Of a stretch of DNA of 64,000 nucleotides, positions 17,224 through 37,221 are shown one piece after another. The stretch covers positions 2,728,001 to 2,792,000 of the forward strand of contig NZ_CP015401.2 in the NCBI RefSeq assembly GCF_001688725.2, given 5' to 3'. Numbering within the stretch: position 1 is the stretch's first letter; each line of letters starts with the position of its first letter. The notes under the pieces are model-generated. The model was given only the letters and a program-made list of their open reading frames with translations, was not told the origin of the DNA and searched no databases. Origin of the DNA: Bacteroides caecimuris (lineage in GTDB: Bacteria; Bacteroidota; Bacteroidia; Bacteroidales; Bacteroidaceae). The translations under genes and the position numbers were made by a program.

Positions 17224-19848
17224 ATGAGAATGTATGTCAAAGTAATGGCAGCGGTCATTGCATGTATATTGCTGAGTGGAGAAACGTTCTCAGCATTTGC
17301 AACTACCCCCGCTACAGAAAATCTGAGTTGGTTTAAAAAGAAAAAGAAGAAACCAGAAGAGAAGAGTAAAAGCGACTACGAGAAATTAGTGGAAGACAGT
17401 AAAACAACCAAAGGGATGTTTACTGTACATCAACAGAAGAATGATTATTATTTTGAAATTCCCACTTCACTTTTGGGACGTGACTTATTAGTTGTCAATA
17501 AGCTGCAACGAGTCCCTGCCGAACTTAACGATGCGGGCGTAAACCGCGGAGTAAACTATGAGAATCAGATGGTTTGCATGGAATGGGACAAAGCGACGGG
17601 CAAACTAATGTTACGCCAACAACGCCCATTACCTCTGGCCCCCCAAACGGACGCTATCTTCCGTTCGGTAAAGGATAATTTTATCTCTCCACTAATTGCC
17701 GCATTCAAAATCGAAGCAATCAATGCAGATTCTACGGCATTAGTAATCAAGGTAAATGATATTTATGACGGTACGGAAACCAGTATCAATAATGTATTTA
17801 CCAATATTAATCTGGGTACTTCGGCCATCAAGAATTTATCACGTATTCTATCCATCAAATCTTTTTCAAACAATGTCGTGGCAACTTCCGAGTTGACCAC
17901 TCGGGTAACGGAAGGAACTACTACTGTTTATGTAACGGTGGAGGTTAGTTCGTCTATTCTCTTATTGCCCGAAAAGCCGATGATGGGACGATTCGACAAT
18001 CAGAAGGTCGGTTATTTCACGAATCCGTTATTAAGTTTCAGCGATGCACAGCAGCGTACGGATAAGACACAGTATATCACCCGCTGGCGCATGGAACCCA
18101 AACCGGAAGATCGGGAGGCTTACCTGAAAGGTCAGATGGTGGAACCTGCCAAACCGATTGTCTTCTACATTGACAATTCAACTCCTTACCAATGGCGTTC
18201 GTACATTAAGAAAGGTATTGAAGACTGGCAGATTGCTTTTGAAAAGGCTGGTTTCAAGAATGCGATTATCGCCAAAGAAATCACTGACAGTATGCATGTA
18301 GACATGGATGATGTCAACTATTCCGTAGTGACTTATGCTGCTTCGGAAAAGAAAAATGCAATGGGACCTTCTTTGTTAGATCCCCGTTCCGGAGAAATCC
18401 TGGAAGCTGATATTATGTGGTGGCACAATGTGCTTTCTATGGTACGTGAATGGATTACTGTCCAGACCGGAACAGTGTGTCCGGAAGCACGTAATGTGCA
18501 ATTGCCCGATGCTTTGATGGGAGATGCCATTCGATTTGTAGCTTGTCATGAGGTAGGCCACTCTTTAGGACTCCGCCACAATATGATGGGTTCATGGGCT
18601 TTCCCAACAGATTCATTACGTTCCGAAGCATTCACTTCCAAAATGAATTCTACCGCTTCATCTATCATGGATTATGCACGATTCAATTATATCGCACAGC
18701 CTGGAGATGGAGTGAAAGTTCTTTCTCCGCATATCGGTCCATACGATATGTTCGCTATCGAATATGGGTATCGTTGGTACGGAAAGAATACTCCGGAAGA
18801 AGAAAAGGATATTTTATTCGATTTCTTGAGCAAACATACTGATCGGCTTTATAAATATAGTGAAGCACAAGACGTACGCGATGCGGTAGACCCACGTGCA
18901 CAGAACGAAGACTTAGGTGATGATCCGGTTCGTTCTTCTTTACTTGGTATTGAGAATCTGAAACGCATCGTTCCACAAATTCTTCAATGGACTACTACCG
19001 GTGAGAAGGGACAAACTTATGAAGAAGCATCTCGCCTCTACTACGCTGTAATCAACCAATGGAACAACTATTTATATCATGTCCTTGCCAATATTGGCGG
19101 TATCTACATTGAAAATACAATTGTAGGAGACGGCGTTAAAACTTATACATTCGTAGAGAAAGAGAAACAACAAGCTTCACTGAAATTTCTGATGGATGAA
19201 GTTTTGACATACCCTAAATGGCTGTTTGACACGGAAGTGGGGCAATATACTTATCTACTTCGCAATACTCCCATCGGAAAACAGGAAAATGCTCCTACAC
19301 AAATCTTAAAGAACGCCCAAGCCTATATCCTTTGGGATTTACTTGGCAATACTCGTTTGATGCGTATGATAGAGAATGAATCTGTCAATGGAAAGAAAGC
19401 CTTTACAGTAGTGGAACTTATGGACGGACTTCATAAGAACATATTCGGTGTTACCGAACGCGGTGGCATCCCTAACGTAATGGAACGTTCTTTGCAGAAA
19501 AACTTCCTCGATGCATTACTTACAGCCGCTGCAGAACCTGAAGCCGTTAAAATCAACAAGAAAATTGCCAACGAGCATTTCTTGCTTGACCACGCTACTC
19601 CTTTCTGTAGCTGTTACGCTGCCGAACAGCGTGCACTTCGTCAGGAAGACCGGATGGGTGCTCCACGTGTGCTCAACTTCTACGGCAGTCAGCTCAACCG
19701 TATTTCAGATGCTATTTCTGTGAAACGCGGTGAATTATTACGTATCAAGAAGTTGTTGCAGAACCGTCTCGGAACTTCCGATACCGCTGCACGCTATCAT
19801 TATGAGGACATGATTCTGCGTATTAATACGGCTTTAGGAATCAAATAA
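17224..19848 (+). CDS. Secreted zinc metalloprotease of the DUF5117/DUF5118/DUF4953 family
   Basis: This 874-residue protein has an N-terminal signal peptide (about 26 residues). A lysine-rich stretch with KKKKKKPEEKSKS follows at about residues 38-52. The metzincin-type zinc site HEVGHSLGLRHN is at about residue 442. Downstream SIMDY with its Met may supply the Met-turn. DUF5118 and DUF5117 are expected before the catalytic domain and DUF4953 around it. Exported proteins of this type are common in Bacteroidetes and their substrates are largely unknown. It is the first gene of an operon with SusC and SusD (32-bp and 12-bp gaps), which suggests it feeds peptides to that transporter. Confidence 0.88.
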   Translation: MRMYVKVMAAVIACILLSGETFSAFATTPATENLSWFKKKKKKPEEKSKSDYEKLVEDSKTTKGMFTVHQQKNDYYFEIPTSLLGRDLLVVNKLQRVPAELNDAGVNRGVNYENQMVCMEWDKATGKLMLRQQRPLPLAPQTDAIFRSVKDNFISPLIAAFKIEAINADSTALVIKVNDIYDGTETSINNVFTNINLGTSAIKNLSRILSIKSFSNNVVATSELTTRVTEGTTTVYVTVEVSSSILLLPEKPMMGRFDNQKVGYFTNPLLSFSDAQQRTDKTQYITRWRMEPKPEDREAYLKGQMVEPAKPIVFYIDNSTPYQWRSYIKKGIEDWQIAFEKAGFKNAIIAKEITDSMHVDMDDVNYSVVTYAASEKKNAMGPSLLDPRSGEILEADIMWWHNVLSMVREWITVQTGTVCPEARNVQLPDALMGDAIRFVACHEVGHSLGLRHNMMGSWAFPTDSLRSEAFTSKMNSTASSIMDYARFNYIAQPGDGVKVLSPHIGPYDMFAIEYGYRWYGKNTPEEEKDILFDFLSKHTDRLYKYSEAQDVRDAVDPRAQNEDLGDDPVRSSLLGIENLKRIVPQILQWTTTGEKGQTYEEASRLYYAVINQWNNYLYHVLANIGGIYIENTIVGDGVKTYTFVEKEKQQASLKFLMDEVLTYPKWLFDTEVGQYTYLLRNTPIGKQENAPTQILKNAQAYILWDLLGNTRLMRMIENESVNGKKAFTVVELMDGLHKNIFGVTERGGIPNVMERSLQKNFLDALLTAAAEPEAVKINKKIANEHFLLDHATPFCSCYAAEQRALRQEDRMGAPRVLNFYGSQLNRISDAISVKRGELLRIKKLLQNRLGTSDTAARYHYEDMILRINTALGIK

Positions 19849-24772: not shown

Positions 24773-26065
24773 CTATTTCAATTTTTCATCTAGCAATTTT
24801 TGCAATTGTCCTTTTTCTGCACGAAGAGCTGAACCGGCATAGACTATAATTCCTTCTTTATCAATTATAATCATGTGAGGAATTCCTCCTATTAGATAAT
24901 CTCCCATAAAAGACTTCATCTCTTCATTCGAGCTTGTCCTAAGTTGTTCCCAAGGCATTTCAAATTTGTCCACTGCTTCTTTCCATTTCTTATCTGAATC
25001 ATCGATTGAAACACTGACTATTGAAAGGCCTTTGTCTTTATAATCATCATAAACTTTTTTCAAATGTGGAATTTCTCTTTTACAAGGTCCACACCATGAC
25101 GCCCATACATCAACAACTAATAATTTGGACTTGCCAACATAGTTTTTCAGTTCTTTGCGTTTCTTAGAAAGCGTCTCGAATATATGATTTTTAAATGTTT
25201 CTCCTGACATTTGGGAAAGCTTATTCATACGTTCTTGATCTCTTTTATGTTCCTCTACTACAGCAAGCATCCATGGAGTATTTTTCAGGGTATCATCAGC
25301 TAACCCATATAATTCTTCAAAATCGGGCAATGAATAATTCCATCCATAGCAGTACATACGTCCTATTCCATTATGTATATTCTGCTTCACAAATTCTTTA
25401 TACATTGCTCTTCTTGACATACCAAACATTCGCCGCAAACTATCTGATTTAACCTGAAGGATATCATTGGTAAAACGCTTCGTCGTTCTCTGGAATTGCG
25501 TTAAAGCATCATTCAAAGGCGTACCAACCGCACTCAATGAATCTAAAGAGACTTGTATATTTCCTGCATCCAAGAATAATTCTACTGAACGCGTGGGTTT
25601 GGGATAATTACCTACTGCCAATATTGAAGGATTATAGTCATTCACCTTTCCTCGAAAACTGAATTTACCATCCGCCACCATTACCGTATCAACATGTTGG
25701 ATCTTCTCCCAATCGGTAGACTTGAATGTGAATAACATAGCAAGTTCTCCATTATATGCAGGGTTTATCGTCCCATGAATTATATATTCATCAGGTTGCA
25801 AAGGGGCTTCTTCCGGTTTATTAATTGTCCAAAAGGTCCAAATACCATTTCGTGCTATTTCACCAAAATTCATGATAGCATTACGAACAGATATAACCTC
25901 ACCTGTCCCAGTTGCTTCTTCTTTATAAACTTTCCAATATGCCACTTGTGTATCCATAACTTTAGAATCCATAAAGCAGATAACCGTAGAATCAGGCAAC
26001 TGCATTTGGCTTTTTATCGGTAGAAAAAACATCTGCATCAACAAAAAAAATACTATATATTTCAT
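24773..26065 (-). CDS. DUF4369/TlpA-type thiol-disulfide oxidoreductase, copy 2 of the peptide locus
   Basis: This is a 430-residue exported protein. The signal peptide (about residues 1-19) is followed by a DUF4369-like beta domain (about 85-180). A helical middle part leads to a TlpA/ResA thioredoxin domain (about 300-430) with active site WASWCGPCKRE and the cis-Pro in GGIPHMII. From about residue 66 on it is almost identical to the protein encoded at 31003-32298; the first ~65 residues differ strongly. It is the last gene of the peptide operon, downstream of a decayed precursor gene. A periplasmic role in reducing or shuffling peptide disulfides is inferred. Confidence 0.85.
   Translation of the reverse strand: MKYIVFFLLMQMFFLPIKSQMQLPDSTVICFMDSKVMDTQVAYWKVYKEEATGTGEVISVRNAIMNFGEIARNGIWTFWTINKPEEAPLQPDEYIIHGTINPAYNGELAMLFTFKSTDWEKIQHVDTVMVADGKFSFRGKVNDYNPSILAVGNYPKPTRSVELFLDAGNIQVSLDSLSAVGTPLNDALTQFQRTTKRFTNDILQVKSDSLRRMFGMSRRAMYKEFVKQNIHNGIGRMYCYGWNYSLPDFEELYGLADDTLKNTPWMLAVVEEHKRDQERMNKLSQMSGETFKNHIFETLSKKRKELKNYVGKSKLLVVDVWASWCGPCKREIPHLKKVYDDYKDKGLSIVSVSIDDSDKKWKEAVDKFEMPWEQLRTSSNEEMKSFMGDYLIGGIPHMIIIDKEGIIVYAGSALRAEKGQLQKLLDEKLK
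24802..25860 (-). repeat. 1.06-kb near-identical direct repeat, unit A
   Basis: This segment equals 31032-32090 with a constant offset of 6230 bp and no indel. By eye I count about six base differences, all but perhaps one silent. It covers the 3' five-sixths of the TlpA-like gene. Sequence outside both ends diverges quickly, which points to recent duplication or gene conversion. Confidence 0.9.
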
Positions 26066-26137
26066 ATTTACTCATAAATTGAAGCCTATTTCCTGTAAGA
26101 AAAAAATAGACTTTATATTAATAATTACTACAGCTAA

Positions 26138-26269
26138 TTAAAATTTAGTTGACATGACACATTCACATCCTATTGTTTTTTTACAAAATCTTAGTACAGA
26201 AGGAAGTTTCTGAGTCATAATGCATATTATGGAACACAATACCCAGAACATTCTTAATAACTTTTTCAT
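26138..26269 (-). pseudogene. Decayed copy of the GG-leader peptide precursor
   Basis: A 43-codon frame starts with MKKLL and ends with FCKKTIGCECVMSTKF. The end matches the end of the intact precursor at 32367-32636 (ICKKTIGCECVISGIN). The upstream A+T-rich 25 bp before the start also match those of the intact gene. Nearly all of the leader, including the double glycine, and the first half of the core are missing. Frame shifts separate traces such as SGYCVP and HYDS that match CSGTCAPYRHYDS in the other copy. It sits between glf and the second TlpA-like gene, exactly where a precursor should be. It cannot be matured by the GG route. Confidence 0.75.
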
Positions 26270-26321
26270 ATCTATAAATCATTAGATTAATAATACTTTA
26301 ATGGGGCAGCCCTGATTAAAG

Positions 26322-27434
26322 TTATATAAACTTATGACTAAAATCTAGCGCTCTTTGTACAACTTCATCCATATTATAATACTTATATTCAGCTAGTCTT
26401 CCTCCGAAATCTACTCTTTCTTCTTGCTGAGCTAACATCCGATACTTCTCATACAAGGTATTATTATGTTCATCATTCACTGGATAATAAGGCTCACCTC
26501 CTTTAGCAAAACTCTGTGGATATTCTATAGTAATTACCGTATCTCGTTGATTTCCAAACTCAAAATGCTTATGCTCAATAATTCGAGTATAAGGAACCTC
26601 AGCATCAGTATAATTAACTACAGCATTTCCTTGGTAATTCTCAACTCCATTCAATAAGGTGGTATCAAACTTCAAACTACGATACTCTAATCTACCATAA
26701 CAATAATTAAAATATCGATCGATCTCTCCCGTATAGATTATCCGTGCCGCCATATTATCAAAACAATCTTTCTTCTTAAAATAATCTGTATTTAGCATAA
26801 CATCGCAATCGATCAACATTCTTTCAATAATAGGAGTATAACCACCTATCGGAATTCCTTGATAGTTATCATTGAAATAATTATTATCAAAAACGAATCG
26901 TACAGGAATACGTTTTATTATTGAGGGTGGAAGTTCCGTCGCTTTTCTGCCCCACTGCTTTTCTGTATATCCTTTTATTAAAGTCTCATATATATCTTTT
27001 CCGACTAAAGATATTGCCTGTTCCTCTAAATTGGACGGTTCTTCTATGTTAGCCATCTTTTTTTGAAGCTCAATAATCTTACGTACATCTTCTTGAGTTA
27101 TAGCACCCCACATTTGATAAAAGGTATTCATATTAAAAGGCAAATTGTATAATTTACCTTTATAATTAGCAATAGGAGAATTTGTATATCTATTGAATTC
27201 TGCAAATGAATTTATATACTTCCATACTCTCTTATCATTTGTGTGGAAAATGTGTGCTCCATATTGATGAACAGTAATCCCATTTACAGTATTTGTATAC
27301 ACATTACCTCCAATGTGCCCACGCTTATCAATAACTAAACAAGACTTTCCTTTTTTAGTCATTTGTTCTGCCACTACAGAACCGAATAAGCCACAACCAA
27401 CTATTAGATAATCATATTGTTTCATAATGTTCAA
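26322..27434 (-). CDS. glf: UDP-galactopyranose mutase
   Basis: This 370-residue flavoenzyme converts UDP-galactopyranose to UDP-galactofuranose. It has the FAD fold DYLIVGCGLFGSVVAEQ, the substrate region IGGNVYTNTVNGITVHQYGA-HIFHT, KQWGR, and the C-terminal TVITIEYPQ and PYYPVND. A second ATG at 27425 is an equally good start. It is unusual in a peptide-export operon. Its presence next to a glycosyltransferase suggests that the sugar donor for this locus is UDP-galactofuranose, which is inference. Confidence 0.92.
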   Translation of the reverse strand: MNIMKQYDYLIVGCGLFGSVVAEQMTKKGKSCLVIDKRGHIGGNVYTNTVNGITVHQYGAHIFHTNDKRVWKYINSFAEFNRYTNSPIANYKGKLYNLPFNMNTFYQMWGAITQEDVRKIIELQKKMANIEEPSNLEEQAISLVGKDIYETLIKGYTEKQWGRKATELPPSIIKRIPVRFVFDNNYFNDNYQGIPIGGYTPIIERMLIDCDVMLNTDYFKKKDCFDNMAARIIYTGEIDRYFNYCYGRLEYRSLKFDTTLLNGVENYQGNAVVNYTDAEVPYTRIIEHKHFEFGNQRDTVITIEYPQSFAKGGEPYYPVNDEHNNTLYEKYRMLAQQEERVDFGGRLAEYKYYNMDEVVQRALDFSHKFI

Positions 27435-27461
27435 AGATTATACATCACATTATTAATAGCT

Positions 27462-28775
27462 TTAGTTCTTCAATATTTTCTTTAATGGCTGCAACAAACG
27501 TTCAATCAACCTCAAATCTTCAGTTATTATTTCCGCTTGCCCACTCATCTCACGCGTTACAGGTAGTGTCTTACCATAATTAGTGTTCATTCCTTCAGGT
27601 AATACTATTTCTACAACATATCCATTTTGTTGTTCCTGTACAATTGGCATAGGAGAAATGTTACTAACCTTTCCTTTCAAATATCCAAATTCCTGATCTG
27701 GAAAATTGTTTAAGCGAATGTGAACCTGCTGCCCGACCTTTACTTTACCAGAACCTTGAATTGGCATAAAAGCTTTACCGATTGGAACCGCATTTTCTAT
27801 CGGTGCAATTACAAATGCTGTCTCACCTTGAGTTACCCATTGATTTCCACTCCATATTCCTATATAAGATAAGCGCCCACTTATTGGAGCGATTAATGAG
27901 TATTGTTGTTCCCACAAAGAAATTTGAACCCAAAGTTGCTCTAAACTGTTTTTCAGATTCAACTGATAAGTTTCATCTTCATTAACCCATTCTTTTTGTA
28001 TATCAACTAGGTTACTTTTTTCTCTTTCAATTTGCAATTCAACTTGTGCTACAGACATGTGTGAATTTTTATTTGAACTTAAACCTTGCAAATAATTTCG
28101 TTTTGAATTCTCAAACTCTTCAGCAACTACAATCTGACGAGAAAAAAGTAAGGAATCACGTGCAAACATCTTATAAACCAATGCACAATCTTCTTCAGAT
28201 ATAGACAACCCATCTTTAACTAAACTGTAATAAGCTTCTTGAAGATTGAGTTGTTTTTGCGCACTTAATATCTTTTTCCTATAATAGTCCTGTTTCAAGA
28301 ATCGCGCATAATCCTTCAACAAAGTAACAAATGAAGCATAAGTTGATTGGATTTCACCCAATTGAAAAGTCTTTTCACTAAATAACTGATTGCCATAAGT
28401 CAAATCATATCCTTCATTTTTCCATTGGTTCAATAATATTTTTAGAGAATCTATATCTTGGAAGGATGCAACATTCTCTATTAATGCCAAACGCTGACCG
28501 ACTTTGACCTCACTTCCATTTCCTACAAAAAGAGAATCGACTTTTCCTGATACTTTCGTGACCAAATATGTGGGTGGATTTAGCATCGTCAATGTGATTT
28601 GAGCATTTATTTTATCAGGATATTTAAACCAATAGGATCCTATTATAATAAAACTAACAACACCAAATATCACAGTAGTACCCCATCTCAAAATCCAGGG
28701 TGGTATTCGATTCATAACTTCTTGAACTTCATCACTACGAATCTCGATATCTTTATAATTCTTTTCCTCTTTCAT
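27462..28775 (-). CDS. HlyD-family secretion adaptor for the peptide exporter
   Basis: This is a 437-residue membrane fusion protein. A single transmembrane helix lies at about residues 29-50, preceded by a cytosolic arm with RIPPWILRWGT, typical of Bacteroidetes bacteriocin adaptors. A lipoyl half (VSGKVDSLFVGNGSEVKVGQ), a long coiled coil (about 120-285), the second lipoyl half (LIAPISGRLSYIGIWSGNQW) and a beta-barrel follow. The start codon overlaps the stop of the exporter gene by one base, so translation is coupled. It should bridge the C39 ABC exporter to a TolC-like channel not present in this window. Confidence 0.9.
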   Translation of the reverse strand: MKEEKNYKDIEIRSDEVQEVMNRIPPWILRWGTTVIFGVVSFIIIGSYWFKYPDKINAQITLTMLNPPTYLVTKVSGKVDSLFVGNGSEVKVGQRLALIENVASFQDIDSLKILLNQWKNEGYDLTYGNQLFSEKTFQLGEIQSTYASFVTLLKDYARFLKQDYYRKKILSAQKQLNLQEAYYSLVKDGLSISEEDCALVYKMFARDSLLFSRQIVVAEEFENSKRNYLQGLSSNKNSHMSVAQVELQIEREKSNLVDIQKEWVNEDETYQLNLKNSLEQLWVQISLWEQQYSLIAPISGRLSYIGIWSGNQWVTQGETAFVIAPIENAVPIGKAFMPIQGSGKVKVGQQVHIRLNNFPDQEFGYLKGKVSNISPMPIVQEQQNGYVVEIVLPEGMNTNYGKTLPVTREMSGQAEIITEDLRLIERLLQPLKKILKN

Positions 28776-30982
28776 TAAAGACCTAACTCAAGTTGATTTT
28801 TCACTAATTCATAATATAACCCTTTTCTTTTGGTTAATTCATGATGAGTACCTTGTTCAGCAACCTGCCCATTATTTAATACCACTATATTATCTGCATC
28901 TTTCACTGTACTTAATCGGTGCGCAACAACCACAACCGTTTTTCCTTTATAAAACTCATGCAAATGCGCCATGATTTCTTTCTCATTATTTGCATCCAAA
29001 GAATTAGTAGCTTCATCGAAAAACAAGAATTCAGGATTTTTATACACAGCTCTGGCAATTAATAAACGTTGACGTTGCCCTTGACTGATACCATTTCCTT
29101 CCATTCCGATTTTAGTATTGTACCCTAAAGGTAAAGAGTCGATAAACTCCCTAATATTTGCAACCATTACAGAATGGCGCAATTTTTCTATATCTATTTG
29201 CTCTTCACCGACTGCTATGTTTTGCGCTATTGTCTCTGAAAAGATGTAACCATCTTGCATTACTGCACCAGCACTTGCGCGCCATAAATGTGGATTTATA
29301 TTTTCTAAAGGTGTTCCTCCCACTAATATCTTCCCTTTATTCGGTTTATAAAATCCCAACATTAGTTTTACCAAAGTTGTTTTACCACTCCCACTAGCAC
29401 CAACAATAGCTGTTACTTTATGTTCAGGTATTACTAAATTGATATCATTTAGTACATAGTCTCTATCTGCTCCATCATAACTAAATGACAAATTATTTAA
29501 TTCAATATATTTAAATGCTGGTAATGAAGCCATTTTCATATCAATATTATGTTCTTCGTCTTCTATCTCATGAACTTCATTCAGACGTTCAAGACTTATT
29601 TGTGCATCCTGAAATTGTTGAACGAAACTAATAAAAGAACTTACCGGTGCAGATAGCTGCCCTATTATATATGTAAGGGACATCATCATACCTAAAGTTA
29701 GATCCCCCTCTACAACCGATTTCGCAGCAATAAAAGTTATAATAATATTGGTCGTATGTGAGAAGAATACAGATCCTATTTGCTGAATTTGTCCAAGAGC
29801 TAATCCCTTAACACTTATCTTAAACAATTTCACTTGTATCCGTTCCCATTGCCATCTTTTTTGTTTCTCACAATTATTCAATTTGATTTCCTGCATTGCA
29901 GTCACCAACTGGATCATATTACTTTGTTCACTTGATGACTGTGAAAAACGGCGTATATCTAATACTCTACGATACTTCAAAAACAATAGAACCCAACAAA
30001 CATACAAAGTATTTCCAAACAGAAAAATAGCTAGGATACTCAAATTATAGTAGGCTAGCACAAAGGAAAAAACAAAGAAATTGACAAAGGAAAACAAGGT
30101 TCCTATTGAGGAACCTGTTAGAAAGCTTTCAATACGACCATGATCACCTATACGTTGCAATATATCACCGACCATTTTTGAATCAAAATACCTCAAAGGA
30201 AGCTTCATAAGTTTACACAGAAAATCAGAAATTAATGATATATTAATACGTGTATTCATGTGTAACATTATCCAACTTCTAATAAACTCGACTGATAATT
30301 GAGATAAGAAAACTATTAACTGTGCTATTAATATTAGAGTAATAAAGGAGAGGCTTCCATCTTGAATTCCTATATCAACTAATGATTGAGTAAGAAATGG
30401 AAAAATTAATTGTAGCAAACTTCCAATTAACATTCCTAACGTTAACTGTAATAATTCCTTCTTATATGGAGACAAATATCTTAAGAAAAAATCAAGGCTT
30501 CTTTTGTTTTTCTTATTTTCATCCTCCATTTCATAAAACTCAGCACTAGGTTCCAATATTAAAACAGTACCTTTAGATTCCCTCTCACTGACTGTCGTTA
30601 TCCATTGTTTTCTAAATTCTTGCTCTTTATAAGTTATCAAATCACCAACAGGATCTGCTATATCAATCAAATACTCTTTTTTTTTCTTCCTAATATTATA
30701 GCACACTACAAAATGATTTTGATTCCAGTGCAATATACAAGGCAGTGGGATTCCACTAATTAACTGTTCGAATGTTATTTTAGCACCTATTGTGCGAAAA
30801 CCAATAGCTTCAGCTGCATCGCTTATACCTAGCAAAGACACTCCGTTCCTTGTCAAGTATGACCGAGAACGAAGTGACTGTAAAGAATATGATTTACCAT
30901 AATAGCGAGCGATCATCCGCAGACAAGTAGGACCACAATCCATTGCGTCAAGTTGCGTATAGAAAGGAAATGCTTTAATCAT
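28775..30982 (-). CDS. Peptidase-containing ABC transporter (C39, GG-leader processing exporter)
   Basis: This 735-residue exporter has three parts. Residues 1-140 are a C39 peptidase with catalytic Cys in MDCGPTCLRMIARYYGK, His in NHFVVCYN and Asp in IADPVGD. Residues ~165-450 form a six-helix ABC membrane domain. The ATPase has Walker A GASGSGKTTLVKL, signature ISQGQRQRLLIARA, Walker B FLFFDEATNSLD and switch His VVVAHRLST. The family cuts leaders after a double glycine and exports the mature peptide. The intact precursor at 32367-32636 is the obvious substrate. Whether the TlpA-like protein from the preceding gene acts on the exported peptide is unknown. Confidence 0.95.
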   Translation of the reverse strand: MIKAFPFYTQLDAMDCGPTCLRMIARYYGKSYSLQSLRSRSYLTRNGVSLLGISDAAEAIGFRTIGAKITFEQLISGIPLPCILHWNQNHFVVCYNIRKKKKEYLIDIADPVGDLITYKEQEFRKQWITTVSERESKGTVLILEPSAEFYEMEDENKKNKRSLDFFLRYLSPYKKELLQLTLGMLIGSLLQLIFPFLTQSLVDIGIQDGSLSFITLILIAQLIVFLSQLSVEFIRSWIMLHMNTRINISLISDFLCKLMKLPLRYFDSKMVGDILQRIGDHGRIESFLTGSSIGTLFSFVNFFVFSFVLAYYNLSILAIFLFGNTLYVCWVLLFLKYRRVLDIRRFSQSSSEQSNMIQLVTAMQEIKLNNCEKQKRWQWERIQVKLFKISVKGLALGQIQQIGSVFFSHTTNIIITFIAAKSVVEGDLTLGMMMSLTYIIGQLSAPVSSFISFVQQFQDAQISLERLNEVHEIEDEEHNIDMKMASLPAFKYIELNNLSFSYDGADRDYVLNDINLVIPEHKVTAIVGASGSGKTTLVKLMLGFYKPNKGKILVGGTPLENINPHLWRASAGAVMQDGYIFSETIAQNIAVGEEQIDIEKLRHSVMVANIREFIDSLPLGYNTKIGMEGNGISQGQRQRLLIARAVYKNPEFLFFDEATNSLDANNEKEIMAHLHEFYKGKTVVVVAHRLSTVKDADNIVVLNNGQVAEQGTHHELTKRKGLYYELVKNQLELGL

Positions 30983-31002
30983 AATATATTACACATCATG
31001 CA

Positions 31003-32298
31003 TTATTTCAATTTTTCATTTAACAAATTCTGCAATTGTCCTTTTTCTGCACGAAGAGCTGAACCAGCATAGACTATAATTCCTTCTTTATCAATTATAA
31101 TCATGTGAGGAATTCCTCCTATTAGATAATCTCCCATAAAAGACTTCATCTCTTCATTCGAGCTTGTCCTAAGTTGTTCCCAAGGCATTTCAAATTTGTC
31201 CACTGCTTCTTTCCATTTCTTATCTGAATCATCGATTGAAACACTGACTATTGAAAGGCCTTTGTCTTTATAATCATCATAAACTTTTTTCAAATGTGGA
31301 ATTTCTCTTTTACAAGGTCCACACCATGACGCCCATACATCAACAACCAATAATTTGGACTTGCCAACATAGTTTTTCAGTTCTTTGCGTTTCTTAGAAA
31401 GCGTCTCGAATATATGATTTTTAAATGTTTCTCCTGACATTTGGGAAAGCTTATTCATACGTTCTTGATCTCTTTTATGTTCCTCTACTACAGCAAGCAT
31501 CCATGGAGTATTTTTCAGGGTATCATCAGCTAACCCATATAATTCTTCAAAATCGGGCAATGAATAATTCCATCCATAGCAGTACATACGTCCTATTCCA
31601 TTATGTATATTCTGCTTCACAAATTCTTTATACATTGCTCTTCTTGACATACCAAACATTCGCCGCAAACTATCTGATTTAACCTGAAGGATATCATTGG
31701 TAAAACGCTTCGTCGTTCTCTGGAATTGCGTTAAAGCATCATTCAAAGGCGTACCAACCGCACTCAATGAATCTAAAGAGACTTGTATATTTCCTGCATC
31801 CAAGAATAATTCTACTGAACGCGTGGGTTTAGGATAATTACCTACTGCCAATATTGAAGGATTATAATCATTCACCTTTCCTCGAAAACTGAATTTACCA
31901 TCCGCCACCATTACCGTATCAACATGCTGGATCTTCTCCCAATCGGTAGACTTGAATGTGAATAACATAGCAAGTTCTCCATTATATGCAGGGTTTATCG
32001 TCCCATGAATTATATATTCATCAGGTTGCAAAGGGGCTTCTTCCGGTTTATTAATTGTCCAAAAGGTCCAAATACCATTCCGTGCTATTTCACCATAACG
32101 CATGATAGCATTACGAACAGATATAACTTCACCAGTTCCATTAATCTCACCATCTCCCATTTTCTTTGCTGTAAATTGATAATCAGCTTCTTTAGAATCT
32201 ATAAAACAAATCGTTGAATCGGGTGATAACATTTCCTGCCCTTTTACAGATATAGGAGAAAATAATATTATAAGAAATAAATATATTACATTTTTCAT
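31003..32298 (-). CDS. DUF4369/TlpA-type thiol-disulfide oxidoreductase, copy 1 of the peptide locus
   Basis: This is a 431-residue exported thioredoxin-fold protein with signal peptide (about residues 1-20). It has the same architecture as the copy at 24773-26065: DUF4369-like domain, helical middle, then a TlpA domain with WASWCGPCKRE. It follows the intact precursor gene by 68 bp. Only the first 65 residues (for example QFTAKKMGDGEINGTGEV) and the last few differ from copy 2. If the variable N-terminus contacts the peptide, the two copies may be matched to different precursors, but recombination alone could explain the pattern. Confidence 0.87.
   Translation of the reverse strand: MKNVIYLFLIILFSPISVKGQEMLSPDSTICFIDSKEADYQFTAKKMGDGEINGTGEVISVRNAIMRYGEIARNGIWTFWTINKPEEAPLQPDEYIIHGTINPAYNGELAMLFTFKSTDWEKIQHVDTVMVADGKFSFRGKVNDYNPSILAVGNYPKPTRSVELFLDAGNIQVSLDSLSAVGTPLNDALTQFQRTTKRFTNDILQVKSDSLRRMFGMSRRAMYKEFVKQNIHNGIGRMYCYGWNYSLPDFEELYGLADDTLKNTPWMLAVVEEHKRDQERMNKLSQMSGETFKNHIFETLSKKRKELKNYVGKSKLLVVDVWASWCGPCKREIPHLKKVYDDYKDKGLSIVSVSIDDSDKKWKEAVDKFEMPWEQLRTSSNEEMKSFMGDYLIGGIPHMIIIDKEGIIVYAGSALRAEKGQLQNLLNEKLK
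31032..32090 (-). repeat. 1.06-kb near-identical direct repeat, unit B
   Basis: Partner of 24802-25860 in the same orientation. Recombination between the two units would delete 6230 bp carrying glf, the HlyD adaptor, the C39 exporter and the decayed precursor. Confidence 0.9.
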
Positions 32299-32366
32299 AC
32301 ATCGAATTATTTATCATAATGGGAAACATTTTCAAGGCAAATGTTTCCCATTTAAACTTCATAAGG

Positions 32367-32636
32367 TTAGTTTATACCAGATATAACACATTCACATCCA
32401 ATTGTTTTTTTGCATATTCTTGGTTTCATTACAAATGAGCCATTAGATGAATCATAATGTCTATAAGGAGCACAAGTACCAGAGCATTTTGTCTGAGGAG
32501 GATCAAATGAAATATATTCTTCATAACAATTATCGCCAGTTTGTCTAGCGAAGGAGTTTCCTCCCAATATCTGTTTCATTTCTGAATCAGACATCTTCTC
32601 TACATGTAGTAGAGTCATTTTAGATAACTTTTTCAT
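32367..32636 (-). CDS. GG-leader, six-cysteine natural product precursor peptide
   Basis: This is an 89-residue precursor. Residues 1-26 are a GG-Bacteroidales leader (MKKLSKMTLLHVEKMSDSEM, then KQILGG), the kind recognised by C39 peptidases and described for the 'natural product precursor, GG-Bacteroidales' family (TIGR04149). The predicted core, residues 27-89, has six cysteines at 37, 51, 55, 75, 81 and 83 (NCYEEY, KCSGTCAPY, ICKKTIGCECV). Six cysteines allow three disulfides. The core is rich in Ser, Thr and Tyr, giving possible glycosylation sites. It lies between two thioredoxin-type genes. Function, probably an antibacterial or signalling peptide, is inferred. Confidence 0.85.
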   Translation of the reverse strand: MKKLSKMTLLHVEKMSDSEMKQILGGNSFARQTGDNCYEEYISFDPPQTKCSGTCAPYRHYDSSNGSFVMKPRICKKTIGCECVISGIN

Positions 32637-32690
32637 GTTTGTAAATTATTAAATTAATAATAGCCGCAACGTGCAGCAAATAATACTATT

Positions 32691-34232
32691 CTAAATATCT
32701 GTATCTAGGAAAAAAGATAAATTTTCTATTGTATATTGAGGAGGAAGTAAATATCCATTAACTAAGATTGTTGGAGTAGCCACTAGATGCGTATACCTTT
32801 TCCATTGTTCATGTTTTTCCAACTCCTCTTCCACTCCTTCAAAGCTAAAATTATATTTTGCTATAAAATCATCCGAATGATATTTACCTTTCTCATACCA
32901 ATCTTTATATATTTCATCTATTTCGCCAGATTTCCCATTTAGATATGTTGCAATCAAAAAACGATTACTATCTAACAAGTCATCGCTAAAAGCTGAAAAG
33001 ATATATTGCACACAAAGTTTATCTGCATTAATAGCCAACATCTTCTTTACTCTCGTATGCATCTGTCCACAAGGCTCACAGTGCGGATTAGTCAATATAG
33101 TTACTTTTAACTTCGCTTTTGGATTACCAAATACTATTTTCGTTGTATCCTGTGTTTCAAAATAGGGTTGTGATTTTAATAGAGCTTTAAATACATCATC
33201 AGAATTCTTTAATGCAGTAAATCCTTGTTCAAGCAATTCCAATCTATTAGAATGAGCTATTTTCATAGTTGATATATTGATCAACAAAACGATAAATACA
33301 TAAAACGAACCAATCGAAATTGATGGTATAATACTTAATGGGGATTCATTAAAACATACTCCCAATATATTAGTTAAGAAAATAGCCCACAACAATACTT
33401 GAACTATCAAACATAGCATGCACCACTGCCGAACTTTCTTATATTGATACCAGACACTCCAAACAGTATAAGGAAGAGCAAAAACATTAATTATTGCTTG
33501 ATAAGAAATATAATTGGGTAACAGAATAATCAATAATAGATTTGCAATAAAATAACCTAATCCTATCTCACTCCAACTAAAAAATCCAATTTTAGCTGCT
33601 GGCAATTCCAAAATATTATTACAATCTCGTTGATGAAATAAAGAACAAATTTTATCTGCATAATCACTTTGTCTCTTCTCTTGTTTCAGTAGCAACAAAT
33701 ATGATATGTATATGCCAACTAAATTGATAACAGATAAAATAGTTCCATATACTCCTATTTGTTCCATATTTGCATACCATGCTCCAAAAAGAAAAAGAGA
33801 AGGAATAATGCATAATAAAACAGTTTGAAGTTTTTTCACTAAAGTTATCATCAAATGTTTTTGATAATCTGGTTCTACAGAGTCTACAGCTGGTTCTGCA
33901 AGAAGCGCAACTCCAGACCATACCTCTTTAAAATTATCAAAAGAGTTTTTTATCTCAATATTTCCCCAATCATAAGTAACATTATTTTCTGAGATAGCTT
34001 TAACAACGACAAATTCTTCTCCAACATGAGCAATAAAAGGAGGCACAAACTGCCTTACATTTTTATCAACAGAACGTACTCCTTCATTATAAACGCCATA
34101 AGTTTTTAACATATGAGAAAGTCCATACAAAGAATCACGATAAGGATGGGTTCTATATAATTTATCTGAAAAAGCTGCGGTATGTTTTACTTTCAGAGCA
34201 GTAAGAAATTGTGTAAATATAGTATTTTTCAT
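32691..34232 (-). CDS. VKOR-thioredoxin fusion with degenerate C39-like N-terminal domain
   Basis: This 513-residue membrane protein has three parts. Residues 1-125 resemble a C39 peptidase fold (HPYRDSLYGLSHMLKTYGV, PPFIAHVGEEFVVV). The catalytic CGP segment is absent and His is replaced in GEEFVVV, so it is probably a leader-binding pseudopeptidase. Residues ~135-330 form a VKOR/DsbB-like domain with several helices, the outer cysteine pair region CSLFHQRDCNNILELPAAKI and the quinone-site CMLC. Residues ~365-513 are a DsbA/DsbG-like thioredoxin domain with CEPC and cis-Pro ATPTILVNG. Together this is a self-contained quinone-linked disulfide-forming machine. It is encoded 55 bp before the six-cysteine precursor. 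Confidence 0.87.
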   Translation of the reverse strand: MKNTIFTQFLTALKVKHTAAFSDKLYRTHPYRDSLYGLSHMLKTYGVYNEGVRSVDKNVRQFVPPFIAHVGEEFVVVKAISENNVTYDWGNIEIKNSFDNFKEVWSGVALLAEPAVDSVEPDYQKHLMITLVKKLQTVLLCIIPSLFLFGAWYANMEQIGVYGTILSVINLVGIYISYLLLLKQEKRQSDYADKICSLFHQRDCNNILELPAAKIGFFSWSEIGLGYFIANLLLIILLPNYISYQAIINVFALPYTVWSVWYQYKKVRQWCMLCLIVQVLLWAIFLTNILGVCFNESPLSIIPSISIGSFYVFIVLLINISTMKIAHSNRLELLEQGFTALKNSDDVFKALLKSQPYFETQDTTKIVFGNPKAKLKVTILTNPHCEPCGQMHTRVKKMLAINADKLCVQYIFSAFSDDLLDSNRFLIATYLNGKSGEIDEIYKDWYEKGKYHSDDFIAKYNFSFEGVEEELEKHEQWKRYTHLVATPTILVNGYLLPPQYTIENLSFFLDTDI

Positions 34233-34272
34233 TTGATAAAGCCAAATAAATTAGTTAATAAAAAAATAGCCA

Positions 34273-35211
34273 TTACATTTTCATAACCCATGTACCAATT
34301 TTGGCTAATTTACTATTCATCATATATAAATCAAAATCAATATCTAAAAGGAGTTTATCTACCAATACATCAAGTTTAGTAACTAACGGAGATAATGATA
34401 ACGGCATATTAAATAGCCAATACCAATTTAATTCCGATTCAAACATTAAACTCTCATTCATTACATCCATATGAAAATTTATGCTTTTGACTTTTACCAG
34501 TAGCTCTTTAGTAATTCTATCTTCCGGCAATAATGAAACAACTTTCTTCAACAAAACAATATTTACATCTCTATTTCTATTAATTGACTGTAGCGCACAT
34601 TCCAGAAGATAATCATATAAAGGATAAAATCGACACTTATCAGCAACAAAATCAGATAACTTTAACAAAACGAAAAGAATTGAGCTTATTAATAAAATCC
34701 TTGACGAGTTATCTTTTATTTGTCCCAAATCAATCGCCTCAACTGCATCTATAACCTTAAAAATCCATTGCTCCTTCTGAGAATTAACAACATCTTCTAC
34801 AGACAAACGATCTAATAAATATAAACCTGAAGAATAGATGGGATAATCAGCATTCATATCCTCCATTAGCGTTTCTTTTACATCACATAACAACTGCTCG
34901 TCTAAAACGTCTAAAATTTCTGAGGGATCGCCTTCTACGTACTTTTCCTTTATAATTCGGCACATTGCACAACCTATTCCAGCTAATCCACGTTCATAAT
35001 TTCTTGGAATTGCATCATTCATTTTATTATAAATATCATCAATTATTTCATCTGCGATATTTTCATAAAACTGGTTATTTACAAATCTAGAATATCTATA
35101 CATAAATAACGCCAATCCTATTTTACCATATAAAAAGCCAATACCGTCCGCATTATTCAGATTTGCAATAATTGTATTGGAAATTTGAAGTAATATTCTT
35201 TTTTCTATCAT
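34273..35211 (-). CDS. LanC-like protein, short and probably without zinc site
   Basis: This 312-residue, all-helical soluble protein resembles the N-terminal half of LanC-like proteins in GG-Bacteroidales peptide loci. Supporting motifs are GFLYGKIGLALFMYRYSRF and NYERGLAGIGCAM (helical toroid repeats with GxxG). The zinc ligands of a true lanthionine cyclase (Cys, then Cys-His) are not visible in the C-terminal half, which is poorly conserved and hydrophobic. No LanB, LanM or other dehydratase is present. It is therefore more likely a scaffold or leader-binding partner than a cyclase. It starts 2 bp after the glycosyltransferase gene ends. Confidence 0.6.
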   Translation of the reverse strand: MIEKRILLQISNTIIANLNNADGIGFLYGKIGLALFMYRYSRFVNNQFYENIADEIIDDIYNKMNDAIPRNYERGLAGIGCAMCRIIKEKYVEGDPSEILDVLDEQLLCDVKETLMEDMNADYPIYSSGLYLLDRLSVEDVVNSQKEQWIFKVIDAVEAIDLGQIKDNSSRILLISSILFVLLKLSDFVADKCRFYPLYDYLLECALQSINRNRDVNIVLLKKVVSLLPEDRITKELLVKVKSINFHMDVMNESLMFESELNWYWLFNMPLSLSPLVTKLDVLVDKLLLDIDFDLYMMNSKLAKIGTWVMKM

Positions 35212-35213
35212 AA

Positions 35214-37064
35214 TTATTGATTCTTTTTGTATGCTATTACTTTTCTAAAGAACTCTATAAGCTGAGGAACATGATAGTCGAATGAGAATTCCATTCTATG
35301 TCTCAACATATTAACACGTAAGCGAGAGAGCATTTCTGCATCTTTTAATTTAGTTACCAACTCTTCATAATTATCAAATAGGACACCAATATCCAATTTG
35401 TTTACACAATCTTGAATTGCGACTAAAGCATTAGAGTTATTTTTCATCATAACTGGCAATCCAGCAGCAGCATAAGTGCTAATTCTGGCCGGTATATTCA
35501 AATCATCCCAACCAACTTTAAGTATATCATTATTATTATAGCTATTAAAACAATGCAAACAACCGATATCGTATTTTGAAAATTCTTTTGTCCAATTATC
35601 AGCACTCACGTGAGCATGAACATGAAAATGATTTGGTGCAATACGCATCCATTTTTGTTCAGCGCTAAAACGAGATTCATAATAATTTTCAGTATATGAA
35701 TGAACATGAATATTATTGTCTGCCAACAAAGCCAACCCCTCATCCTCTATGCCAATCATGCGCCCGGCAACAAGAATATGTATAGCATTATCATCTTCCG
35801 AAAGCTTTTTTGAAAAATTATTTTTGAAATAATCAACTTTTGGCAAATCCCCATCTAACACCATAGACAATCCATCTTTATCAATTATAAACTGGTTATA
35901 CCACGATTGGGTCAATTCGTTCAAATAGATTTTTCCTGTTGAAAACGTATATAAATACATTAATTCATTCCATGTACCTTCTCGCAAACAGATAAATGGT
36001 CCTTCCTTAAAATGCCAAACAAATGGAATTTGACGAAACTCTCTCAAAACATTATAGGCAAATGAAACAGCACCTGAGTTTAGCATTGCATAAATAACAT
36101 CTGGCTTTATTCTTTCCACTTCATCTTTCCACCGAGATATATTTAGATCTTCCACATGCCCAAAAGGCAAATGTCCAACAGTCGAAAAACTATATTGCGG
36201 CTCTGGCAACCACAGTCCATACAATTTATGACCAGCTTGCTCTAAAGCATAAATACGTTCTGGATTATAAGACAATTCACCTACTATTAAAATTTTCAAT
36301 GATTGCTCACATACAGAAATCTTTTCTCTATAGGAACTGTATAAGCTGTCCTCATTAATAAACTTATATTTAGAAACTCTTAACTTAATAGGATCCTGTA
36401 CATGATAATATCCCCTATATTTATTTAATCCACCACCATATTTTTCCGCTATTAATCTATGTCTTTGATAAGGATGGTTTGTCCAATAACAAGTTATCTT
36501 TTGAGTCATTGAAAACAAACCTTTGTCAGCTAATTTATGCCAAAACATCGCAAATAAATCATTAGTAATCCATTCTTTTCGTTCTAACCAGCGATCTAAT
36601 GTTTTCCTATGCGCTGTTTGGACCAATTGCATACTAAATCCCTTTTTTATTCCTAAGCTTTCGGTGTCAGAAACGTTAAATAAAGAATCTTTCACATCAT
36701 ATCGTACACCAGAGTATGCTAAGACAATATCCTCATTTTTATCAAACTCTTCTCTTAAGACATCCAAATGGTCTCTAAAATAGTAATCATCTGATGGAAG
36801 ATAAGCAATATAATTATAGGTTGCTTTCTCAATTCCTTTATTCAAGGAATATCCTAACCCCTCATTTTTGTCGTTTTTCAAATATATGATTCGTTTATCT
36901 TCTAAAAAAGAAGAAACAAATCGGTCTGTATCATCTACACTACCATCATTTACAATCACCAACTCCCAATGTAAATAGGTTTGTTGAAGTAAGCTAAAGA
37001 TAGCACGTCTAATGAAAGCCGCCTGATTATAAGTAGGCATAATAACTGAAATACCATCAACCAT
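35214..37064 (-). CDS. GT2-GT4 fusion glycosyltransferase of a GG-Bacteroidales peptide locus
   Basis: This 616-residue cytosolic enzyme is the first gene of the operon. Residues ~4-230 are a GT-A, family 2 domain: ISVIMPTYNQAAFIRRAIFS, VIVNDGSVDDT and the metal-binding DD in YLPSDDYY. Residues ~280-600 look like a GT-B, family 4 domain (ILVAGRMIGIEDEGLALLAD, then IPARISTYAAAGLPVMMKN for the donor site). Similar fusions are known in GG-Bacteroidales peptide systems. It may glycosylate the precursor, with glf in the same operon supplying UDP-galactofuranose; it could instead make a surface glycan. Both points are inference. Confidence 0.82.
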   Translation of the reverse strand: MVDGISVIMPTYNQAAFIRRAIFSLLQQTYLHWELVIVNDGSVDDTDRFVSSFLEDKRIIYLKNDKNEGLGYSLNKGIEKATYNYIAYLPSDDYYFRDHLDVLREEFDKNEDIVLAYSGVRYDVKDSLFNVSDTESLGIKKGFSMQLVQTAHRKTLDRWLERKEWITNDLFAMFWHKLADKGLFSMTQKITCYWTNHPYQRHRLIAEKYGGGLNKYRGYYHVQDPIKLRVSKYKFINEDSLYSSYREKISVCEQSLKILIVGELSYNPERIYALEQAGHKLYGLWLPEPQYSFSTVGHLPFGHVEDLNISRWKDEVERIKPDVIYAMLNSGAVSFAYNVLREFRQIPFVWHFKEGPFICLREGTWNELMYLYTFSTGKIYLNELTQSWYNQFIIDKDGLSMVLDGDLPKVDYFKNNFSKKLSEDDNAIHILVAGRMIGIEDEGLALLADNNIHVHSYTENYYESRFSAEQKWMRIAPNHFHVHAHVSADNWTKEFSKYDIGCLHCFNSYNNNDILKVGWDDLNIPARISTYAAAGLPVMMKNNSNALVAIQDCVNKLDIGVLFDNYEELVTKLKDAEMLSRLRVNMLRHRMEFSFDYHVPQLIEFFRKVIAYKKNQ

Positions 37065-37191: not shown

Positions 37192-37221
37192 CAAAAGTAA
37201 CTAAGCTATTCCTCCTTCAAG
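37192..37221 (-). promoter_or_regulatory. Promoter of the peptide biosynthesis operon
   Basis: On the minus strand the -7 element TACTTTTG lies at 37192-37199. A TTG of the -33 box sits about 18 bp upstream, near 37218-37220. The leader to the start at 37064 would be about 120 nt. No other clear promoter was seen before the downstream genes; the operon may be one transcript of about 12 kb. Confidence 0.5.

Follow-up and report, generated by a model that had tools for sequence, protein, structure and literature searches.

Does the tight, co-directional minus-strand operon at positions 24773–37064 of the window (a 64,000-nucleotide stretch of Bacteroides caecimuris contig NZ_CP015401.2) encode a glycosylated peptide, or do its sugar genes merely adjoin those of a sugar-free one? 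Our analysis modestly favors a secreted, glycosylated, disulfide-bonded peptide as the overall best explanation of the operon product, which is probably antibacterial. The gene content agrees with the original prediction, which had listed a GG-leader six-Cys precursor, a C39 exporter, an HlyD protein, disulfide enzymes, a GT2–GT4 glycosyltransferase, a LanC-like protein and a UDP-galactopyranose mutase; as it had also stated, no dehydratase or radical SAM enzyme is present among the nine operon proteins scanned. The features are listed from the 5' side of the operon.

37192..37220, minus strand: candidate promoter of the Bacteroides type ahead of the operon, weak
35214..37064, minus strand: glycosyltransferase (GT), 616 aa, GT-A/GT2 half (~1–240) fused to a GT-B/GT4-like half (~253–616)
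34273..35211, minus strand: LanC-fold protein, 312 aa, without conserved zinc ligands, proposed to act as the GT's substrate adaptor
32691..34232, minus strand: CVT, a fusion of C39-like (no conserved Cys), VKOR and DsbA-like thioredoxin parts, 513 aa
32367..32636, minus strand: precursor peptide, 89 aa, with a 26-aa GG leader and a 63-aa core holding six Cys
31003..32298, minus strand: copy 1 of a TlpA/ResA-like thiol-disulfide protein, 431 aa, containing DUF4369
28775..30982, minus strand: peptidase-containing ABC exporter (PCAT) with C39 domain, 735 aa
27462..28775, minus strand: HlyD-family membrane fusion protein, 437 aa
26322..27434, minus strand: UDP-galactopyranose mutase (Glf), 370 aa, with 27425 as the probable ATG start
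26138..26269, minus strand: decayed remnant of a second precursor gene that retains its start and C-terminal end but has lost the GG leader and first core part
24773..26065, minus strand: TlpA/DUF4369 protein, copy 2

The candidate promoter follows the Bacteroides-type consensus, and 47 of 1000 mononucleotide shuffles held one too. The two TlpA copies share 98.2% DNA identity over 1159 bases with a divergent N-terminus, and the last residues of the decayed precursor resemble the C-terminus of P0007/P0009. We identified no immunity gene. A defence system reading was rejected, with no PADLOC match at E ≤ 0.001 for the six proteins searched.

The precursor leader scores 23.7 and 24.5 bits against TIGR04149 in two profile searches (family cut-off 25), and the sole TIGR04149 match of the genome lies within the operon. 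Among 158 Bacteroides genomes, a full-length member of the precursor family occurs only in the window, while nine other matches in five Bacteroides genomes span the leader but never reach beyond the first part of the core; the search for solved-structure relatives returned only chance matches (best E 0.22). The redox positions C196, C204, C271, C274, C385 and C388 of CVT are invariant in 17 sequences, and CVT may act as the oxidant for the peptide disulfides. Export and disulfide bonding of the peptide are very likely. This disulfide/export core is found in many more genomes than the glycosylation cassette (41 versus 1 of 395, the window's own genome being within both counts). Furthermore, by tblastn none of the 20 fetched CVT loci contains this GT or Glf, with one 25-bit profile match in L191, indicating that the precursor type needs no cassette. 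The proposal that all parts belong to one precursor family is therefore not upheld, as the cassette also accompanies other GG-leader cargo.

The GT is 48–59% identical to 16 relatives, whereas relatives of the LanC-like protein are only 18–33% identical to the window protein, as expected if the latter meets varied substrates. None of the 25 NCBIfam matches of the GT at E ≤ 0.1 is a peptide S-glycosyltransferase of the SunS type (TIGR04195). The GT-B half alone has no Pfam match at E ≤ 1 and was assigned by fold comparison; the folds given for the operon proteins are predicted ones throughout. The LanC-like protein, left unexplained in the original prediction, adopts a predicted LanC fold over its whole length, and no Cys or His is invariant across 18 relatives, the zinc ligands Cys, Cys and His being gone. 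It is encoded in the stretch of 36 of the 39 Bacteroidales GT loci, and in L086 a LanC-like domain is fused to GT4. With its zinc site lost, it looks like a substrate adaptor of the GT.

The operon Glf scores 433.5 bits against TIGR00031, above the cut-off of 303.75, and is the only match to this family in the genome. Its linkage to the GT was assessed in the 10 Bacteroides genomes that match the GT strongly (22 GT copies) and in 148 others, which include six genomes with partial GT matches (G007, G022, G086, G120, G158 and G178). A Glf over the cut-off is present in 10/10 GT-positive genomes and in 65/148 of the others. Within the GT-positive genomes, such a Glf lies within 15 kb of 11 of the 22 GT copies as compared with 3 of 129 other listed GT2 matches, and within 10 kb of 7/22 as compared with 0/129; in all 10 genomes, one or more of the GT copies has a Glf within 15 kb. 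The two genes are direct neighbours, separated by at most 16 bases, in L118, L120, L121, L135, L144, L148, L156 and L165. On the Glf tree, the linked/unlinked label requires 4 changes versus 14.0 after shuffling, and 0 of 500 shuffles were as low; part of this clustering may be taxonomic, because all unlinked Glfs used came from Bacteroides. Most linked Glfs group in clades of their own, which do not join into a single one, and the window Glf falls in a six-row linked clade with support of 95/99. Some linked Glfs are partial or frame-broken (L118, G116 and G104:C138).

The gene set, which the original prediction had proposed to seek in other Bacteroidales genomes, is present again in Dysgonomonas, Pedobacter, Mucilaginibacter and Chitinophaga. 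Chitinophaga L165 and Pedobacter L185/L187 each combine CVT, precursor, TlpA, GT, PCAT, HlyD and Glf, and Mucilaginibacter L148 and L155 have the same set without a TlpA match. Outside the window's own genome we collected 78 GT loci, of which 61 are from Bacteroidota and 17, non-Bacteroidota or unassigned, served as controls. Glf is present in 24 of the 61 (25 by tblastn), 19 of the 24 also containing exporter, HlyD or CVT; in the 17 controls, tblastn recovered the GT in 17/17 and Glf, HlyD, CVT and the LanC-like protein in 0/17. The GT/LanC pair also lies beside TIGR04148/TIGR04150 genes (L094) and TIGR04157 genes (L090, L095), and the cassette beside radical-SAM peptides and large, toxin-like, Gly/Tyr-rich GG-leader proteins. 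In GT-linked cores (n = 23 versus 26), Ser is higher (p 0.04), Tyr higher (p 0.02), Asp lower (p 0.002) and Cys lower (p 0.02), uncorrected over nine features. Ser plus Thr content is not clearly raised (p 0.11) and gives no clear pointer to the target.

These observations bear on an unlikely alternative, in which the exported, disulfide-bonded peptide carries no sugar, and the GT, LanC-like protein and Glf make a surface glycan. In Bacteroides, Glf frequently figures as a capsule gene, and the unlinked Glfs L212, L214, L216 and L218 sit among glycan genes, as read from the neighbouring frames. In addition, the CVT systems manage without the cassette, and 16 of the 17 GT relatives that are non-Bacteroidota or unassigned have no peptide genes nearby, the exception being L159 with an exporter only (PCAT-like, 33% identity over 730 residues). 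However, the nearest other GT2 gene (20 matches in the genome) is 55 kb from the operon, so that Glf as a piece of an adjoining capsule locus is not supported, and the evidence on the case named as refuting the original prediction, a glf and GT of a neighbouring glycan locus, favours that prediction. The recurrent linkage to exporter, HlyD and precursors across families, the Glf tree and the LanC-like/GT4 fusion likewise argue against it. Glf and the GT thus travel with peptide-export genes, and glycosylation of the peptide by this GT is probable.

The identity of the sugar is a separate matter. Furanose attachment, which the presence of glf had suggested, is a natural inference, and we give galactofuranose about an even chance. 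Half of the Bacteroides GT copies (11/22) have no Glf within 15 kb, so a different sugar may be used at those loci; in fold, the GT-B half is similar to glucosyl/GlcNAc enzymes (Gtf3 and GtfC among them), and models named beta-1,6-galactofuranosyltransferase match the GT at about 13–20 bits only. A GT that adds a different sugar, with Glf serving another step or another glycan in trans, is nevertheless improbable in view of the Glf near some GT copy in every GT-positive genome and the direct neighbours described above. We regard a working cyclase and a lanthipeptide product as highly improbable: despite the LanC fold, an active cyclase was rejected on the missing conserved Cys/His, no dehydratase was found among the scanned proteins, and the six Cys stand beside two disulfide enzymes.

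Our best reading is a phylum-wide disulfide-peptide export core that carries a rarer glycosylation cassette of GT, pseudo-LanC adaptor and Glf. In the proposed mechanism, the precursor would be synthesized in the cytoplasm, where the LanC-fold protein, a cyclase no more, would hold it for the GT2+GT4 enzyme. We infer both the GT substrate and the sugar site on the peptide: the enzyme would place one or two sugars on core Ser/Thr (or Tyr), and Glf would convert UDP-galactopyranose into UDP-galactofuranose for one sugar-adding step. The C39 exporter would then cleave after Gly-Gly and export the core with the help of HlyD and of an outer-membrane channel whose gene lies elsewhere. CVT and its TlpA-like partner would form and proofread three disulfides, and the C39-like part of CVT, without conserved Cys, may just bind the leader or the exporter. 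More tentatively, a Bacteroidota mix-and-match cytoplasmic cassette (GT2+GT4 enzyme, LanC-fold adaptor and dedicated Glf) could put galactofuranose on varied GG-leader cargo before C39 export, the cargo comprising six-Cys disulfide peptides, radical-SAM peptides and large Gly/Tyr-rich toxin-like proteins.

Few glycosylated RiPPs are known, and the characterised glycocins are from Firmicutes. We know of no earlier galactofuranosylated RiPP class, and a literature search that covered mostly openly available journals gave, among the matches listed, no galactofuranosylated RiPP and no C39–VKOR peptide system. If true, the mix-and-match reading would represent the first known galactofuranosylated RiPP class and a new role for LanC folds. 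A product of the proposed kind would also bring glycosylated RiPPs, made by unrelated enzymes, to a dominant gut phylum, offer a function for zinc-less LanC proteins set aside by earlier genome mining, and account for glf genes that lie away from capsule loci. Mammals lack galactofuranose, and such a tag could therefore influence how stable the peptides of gut bacteria are, where they are targeted or how the immune system recognizes them.

Glycocins of Firmicutes (sublancin, glycocin F and thermoglycocin) combine a GG-type (or GK) leader, a C39 exporter, thioredoxin-like proteins, a glycosyltransferase and disulfides, according to PMC12457901. The operon has the leader type, C39 PCAT exporter, thioredoxin-like partners, glycosyltransferase and predicted disulfides in common with them. 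The likeness of logic drawn by the original prediction thus stands, whereas glycocin membership does not, because the operon GT is a GT2+GT4 fusion and not of the SunS type; beyond the glycocin set, the operon also encodes the pseudo-LanC, the VKOR fusion and the linked Glf. Three disulfides, if formed, would use all six Cys of the core and leave none free for S-glycosylation. The missing LanC zinc ligands and dehydratase likewise set the operon apart from lanthipeptides.

Bacteroidetocins are GG peptides of Bacteroidetes with an ABC transporter/peptidase and a thiol oxidoreductase, probably disulfide-bonded, and the main text of PMC6671954 contains neither 'glycos' nor 'VKOR'. As described there, they have a 15-aa leader, a 42-aa core with four Cys and a gene for a TM protein, and differ in these respects from the operon. 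The TIGR04148/TIGR04149/TIGR04157 radical-SAM GG-peptide systems of Bacteroidetes have a leader family that the operon leader resembles at scores just under the TIGR04149 cut-off, and no radical SAM maturase was found among the operon proteins scanned. LanC-like proteins without the zinc motif were placed by Fernandez-Cantos 2023 in loci with glycosyltransferases or other CAZymes (BGC3-5) and judged more like endoglucanases, not involved in lanthipeptide clusters; galactopyranose, thioredoxin and disulfide do not occur in the main text of that paper (PMC10352776). Finally, O-glycosylation of serine-rich repeat proteins by Gtf3 and GtfC is coupled to accessory Sec export, while the operon encodes a PCAT and adds a LanC-fold partner.

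The operon reported in the original prediction was confirmed. It runs from 37064 to 24773 on the minus strand of the window, in a 4.84-Mb Bacteroides genome of one contig, with its genes in the following order.

Minus strand, gene 1: GT2–GT4 fusion glycosyltransferase (GT), 616 aa
Minus strand, gene 2: LanC-like protein, 312 aa
Minus strand, gene 3: C39–VKOR–thioredoxin fusion (CVT), 513 aa
Minus strand, gene 4: six-cysteine GG-leader precursor, 89 aa
31003–32298, minus strand, gene 5: TlpA-like protein (copy 1), 431 aa
Minus strand, gene 6: C39 exporter, 735 aa
Minus strand, gene 7: HlyD, 437 aa
Minus strand, gene 8: UDP-galactopyranose mutase (Glf), 370 aa
26138–26269, minus strand, gene 9: decayed precursor, 43 codons plus stop
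24773–26065, minus strand, gene 10: second TlpA-like protein, 430 aa

The intergenic gaps are −1 to 72 bases, and the GC content of the operon block is 31–37% as compared with about 37–47% in its surroundings. What we take to be a SusC/SusD-like pair flanks the operon at one end, with a putative FabK-like gene at the opposite end. The operon appears to be a new variant, a putatively glycosylated, disulfide-bonded GG-leader peptide system with a modular cassette, of which the sugar, its site and the peptide activity are predictions.

Of 158 Bacteroides genomes, 16 gave a GT match at E ≤ 1e-20; the match was strong in ten genomes, which carry 22 GT copies, some partial, and six genomes with short partial matches were left out of this set. 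TIGR00031 exceeded its cut-off in 75 of the 158 genomes, and Glf was present in all ten strong-GT genomes as compared with 65 of the 148 remaining ones (Fisher p 4e-4). Measured start to start, Glf lies within 15 kb of 11 of the 22 GT copies versus 3 of 129 other GT2 matches, the latter from the 150 listed out of 272 GT2 matches and all three belonging to one locus (p 1e-8; GT copies in one genome are not independent). Within 10 kb, the counts are 7 of 22 versus 0 of 129. In the window's genome, the single TIGR00031 match is the operon's Glf, and the nearest of 19 other GT2 matches is 55 kb from the operon. Some Glfs linked to a GT copy are frame-broken or partial (G116, G104:C138 and L118), and in genome G105 the linked Glf comes after HlyD and a second, presumably outer-membrane-efflux-like, gene.

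A tree was built from 43 Glfs, comprising 25 linked and 18 unlinked ones (from 19 unlinked stretches fetched). Caution is due because all the unlinked rows come from Bacteroides. The linked/unlinked label changes 4 times on this tree, as compared with 14.0 in shuffles (0/500 as low), and the window's Glf falls in a six-row clade of linked Glfs (support 95/99). The Glf of locus L230 is linked by position yet lies within the clade of unlinked Glfs, which suggests repeated recruitment.

The disulfide/export core system is more widespread than the glycosylation cassette of GT, LanC-like protein and Glf. CVT occurs in 41 of 395 genomes sampled evenly across the phylum (E ≤ 1e-30) and GT in one of 395 sampled likewise (E ≤ 1e-80), with the window's genome included in both counts and only three candidates scored per genome. 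The exporter was found in 16 of 20 further CVT loci fetched (two of them cut by the stretch end), and neither this GT nor Glf in any of the 20. The loci examined hold 52 distinct GG-leader peptides, 21 directly behind CVT, a set that is not independent because 20 leaders already seen went into the leader model; the following gene is TlpA-like in 18 of the 52 and a six-bladed propeller in 10. Such proteins might help their particular peptide to fold or provide immunity to it.

One scan yielded 78 GT loci, with flanks of up to 10 kb per side that are often shortened by contig ends. By tblastn, the 61 Bacteroidota loci include LanC-like in 39, exporter in 26, Glf in 25, HlyD in 23 and CVT in 14. 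The 39 loci that are Bacteroidales by name hold LanC-like in 36, exporter in 17, Glf in 16 and CVT in 9, and the 22 of other Bacteroidota hold exporter in 8, Glf in 8, LanC-like in 6 and CVT in 5. The 17 non-Bacteroidota or unassigned loci all matched GT by tblastn, with the exporter in one (L159) and Glf, HlyD, CVT and LanC-like in none. These are L159, whose exporter is PCAT-like, L163, L166–L168, L170, L172, L174–L178, L181–L183, L188 and L189; the GT fusions of these loci, 40–45% identical, come from Massilia, Herbaspirillum, Actinomycetota, Chloroflexi and other groups.

The gene order in Pedobacter L185 and L187 is CVT, precursor, TlpA, a 528-aa gene (DUF6734 in L185), GT, exporter, HlyD and Glf, and that in Chitinophaga L165 is CVT, precursor, TlpA, a 350-aa gene, DUF6734, GT, Glf, exporter and HlyD. 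In Mucilaginibacter L148 and L155, the CVT, precursor, GT, Glf, exporter and HlyD genes are arranged differently from this, with no TlpA match. No LanC-like match was obtained in these five loci, indicating that the LanC-like protein is not needed everywhere. In L165 and L185, the DUF6734 protein may perhaps substitute for it. DUF6734 lies directly upstream of GT in both (L165 6889–8337; L185 8391–9974). GT relatives are 48–59% identical to the window's protein versus 18–33% for LanC-like relatives, and we read GT as the likely catalyst and the LanC-like protein as a putative substrate adaptor. L086 (11158–13353, minus strand) encodes a fusion of a LanC-like domain with a GT4 glycosyltransferase, adjoining GT, Glf, two precursors and CVT.

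GT/LanC pairs also adjoin GG-leader proteins of about 150–400 aa, several with Gly/Tyr-rich starts, in a list from a loose pattern of which many other rows are chance matches. Ten of these proteins were scanned: one exceeds the cut-off for DUF5675 (46 bits), and two have Tlde1 matches under cut-off. These weak Tlde1 matches suggest that the L089 and L132 proteins may be exported antibacterial enzymes. Large GG-leader proteins that begin Gly/Tyr-rich lie beside GT in L089 (10212–11264), L132 (12853–13653), L169 (8496–9257) and L097 (16693–17898). L094 combines GT, LanC-like, a frame-broken Glf, a GG peptide, a TIGR04148 radical SAM maturase and TIGR04150, and TIGR04157 glycosyltransferases exceed cut-off in L090 and L095. 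L095 also encodes a double precursor (19398–19844, minus strand), with two complete leader–core units in tandem within one open frame. Often, as in L103, L115, L118, L120, L192, L194 and others, a GG precursor has its own TlpA-like or six-bladed-propeller protein encoded just behind it.

A search of about 5.8 billion proteins found 14 precursor relatives; the source labels one of them, with 82% identity, a partial TIGR04149 family peptide from Bacteroides caecimuris. In their alignment, which includes several partial rows, the GG-site region is nearly invariant and the core is variable around the cysteines. The decayed precursor (26138–26269, minus strand), which adjoins the second TlpA gene on its 5' side, retains the upstream region, start codon and C-terminal stretch, and a deletion has removed its leader together with the beginning of the core; its end resembles those of relatives P0007 and P0009. 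The two TlpA/DUF4369 genes are 98.2% identical over 1159 bases. We read this arrangement as a probable duplication of the precursor–TlpA pair, after which one precursor copy died. The first 50–60 residues of the two TlpA/DUF4369 proteins differ, in a pattern as after gene conversion.

Zinc-less LanC-like proteins near CAZymes and glycosyltransferases in Bacteroidales RiPP loci are reported, and judged more endoglucanase-like, in Fernandez-Cantos 2023 (PMC10352776). A literature search returned no galactofuranose on a RiPP among the matches listed. The glycocin-like interpretation of the original prediction is supported as to the logic of the system and unsupported as to membership; glycocins (PMC12457901) and bacteroidetocins (PMC6671954) are its functional neighbours.
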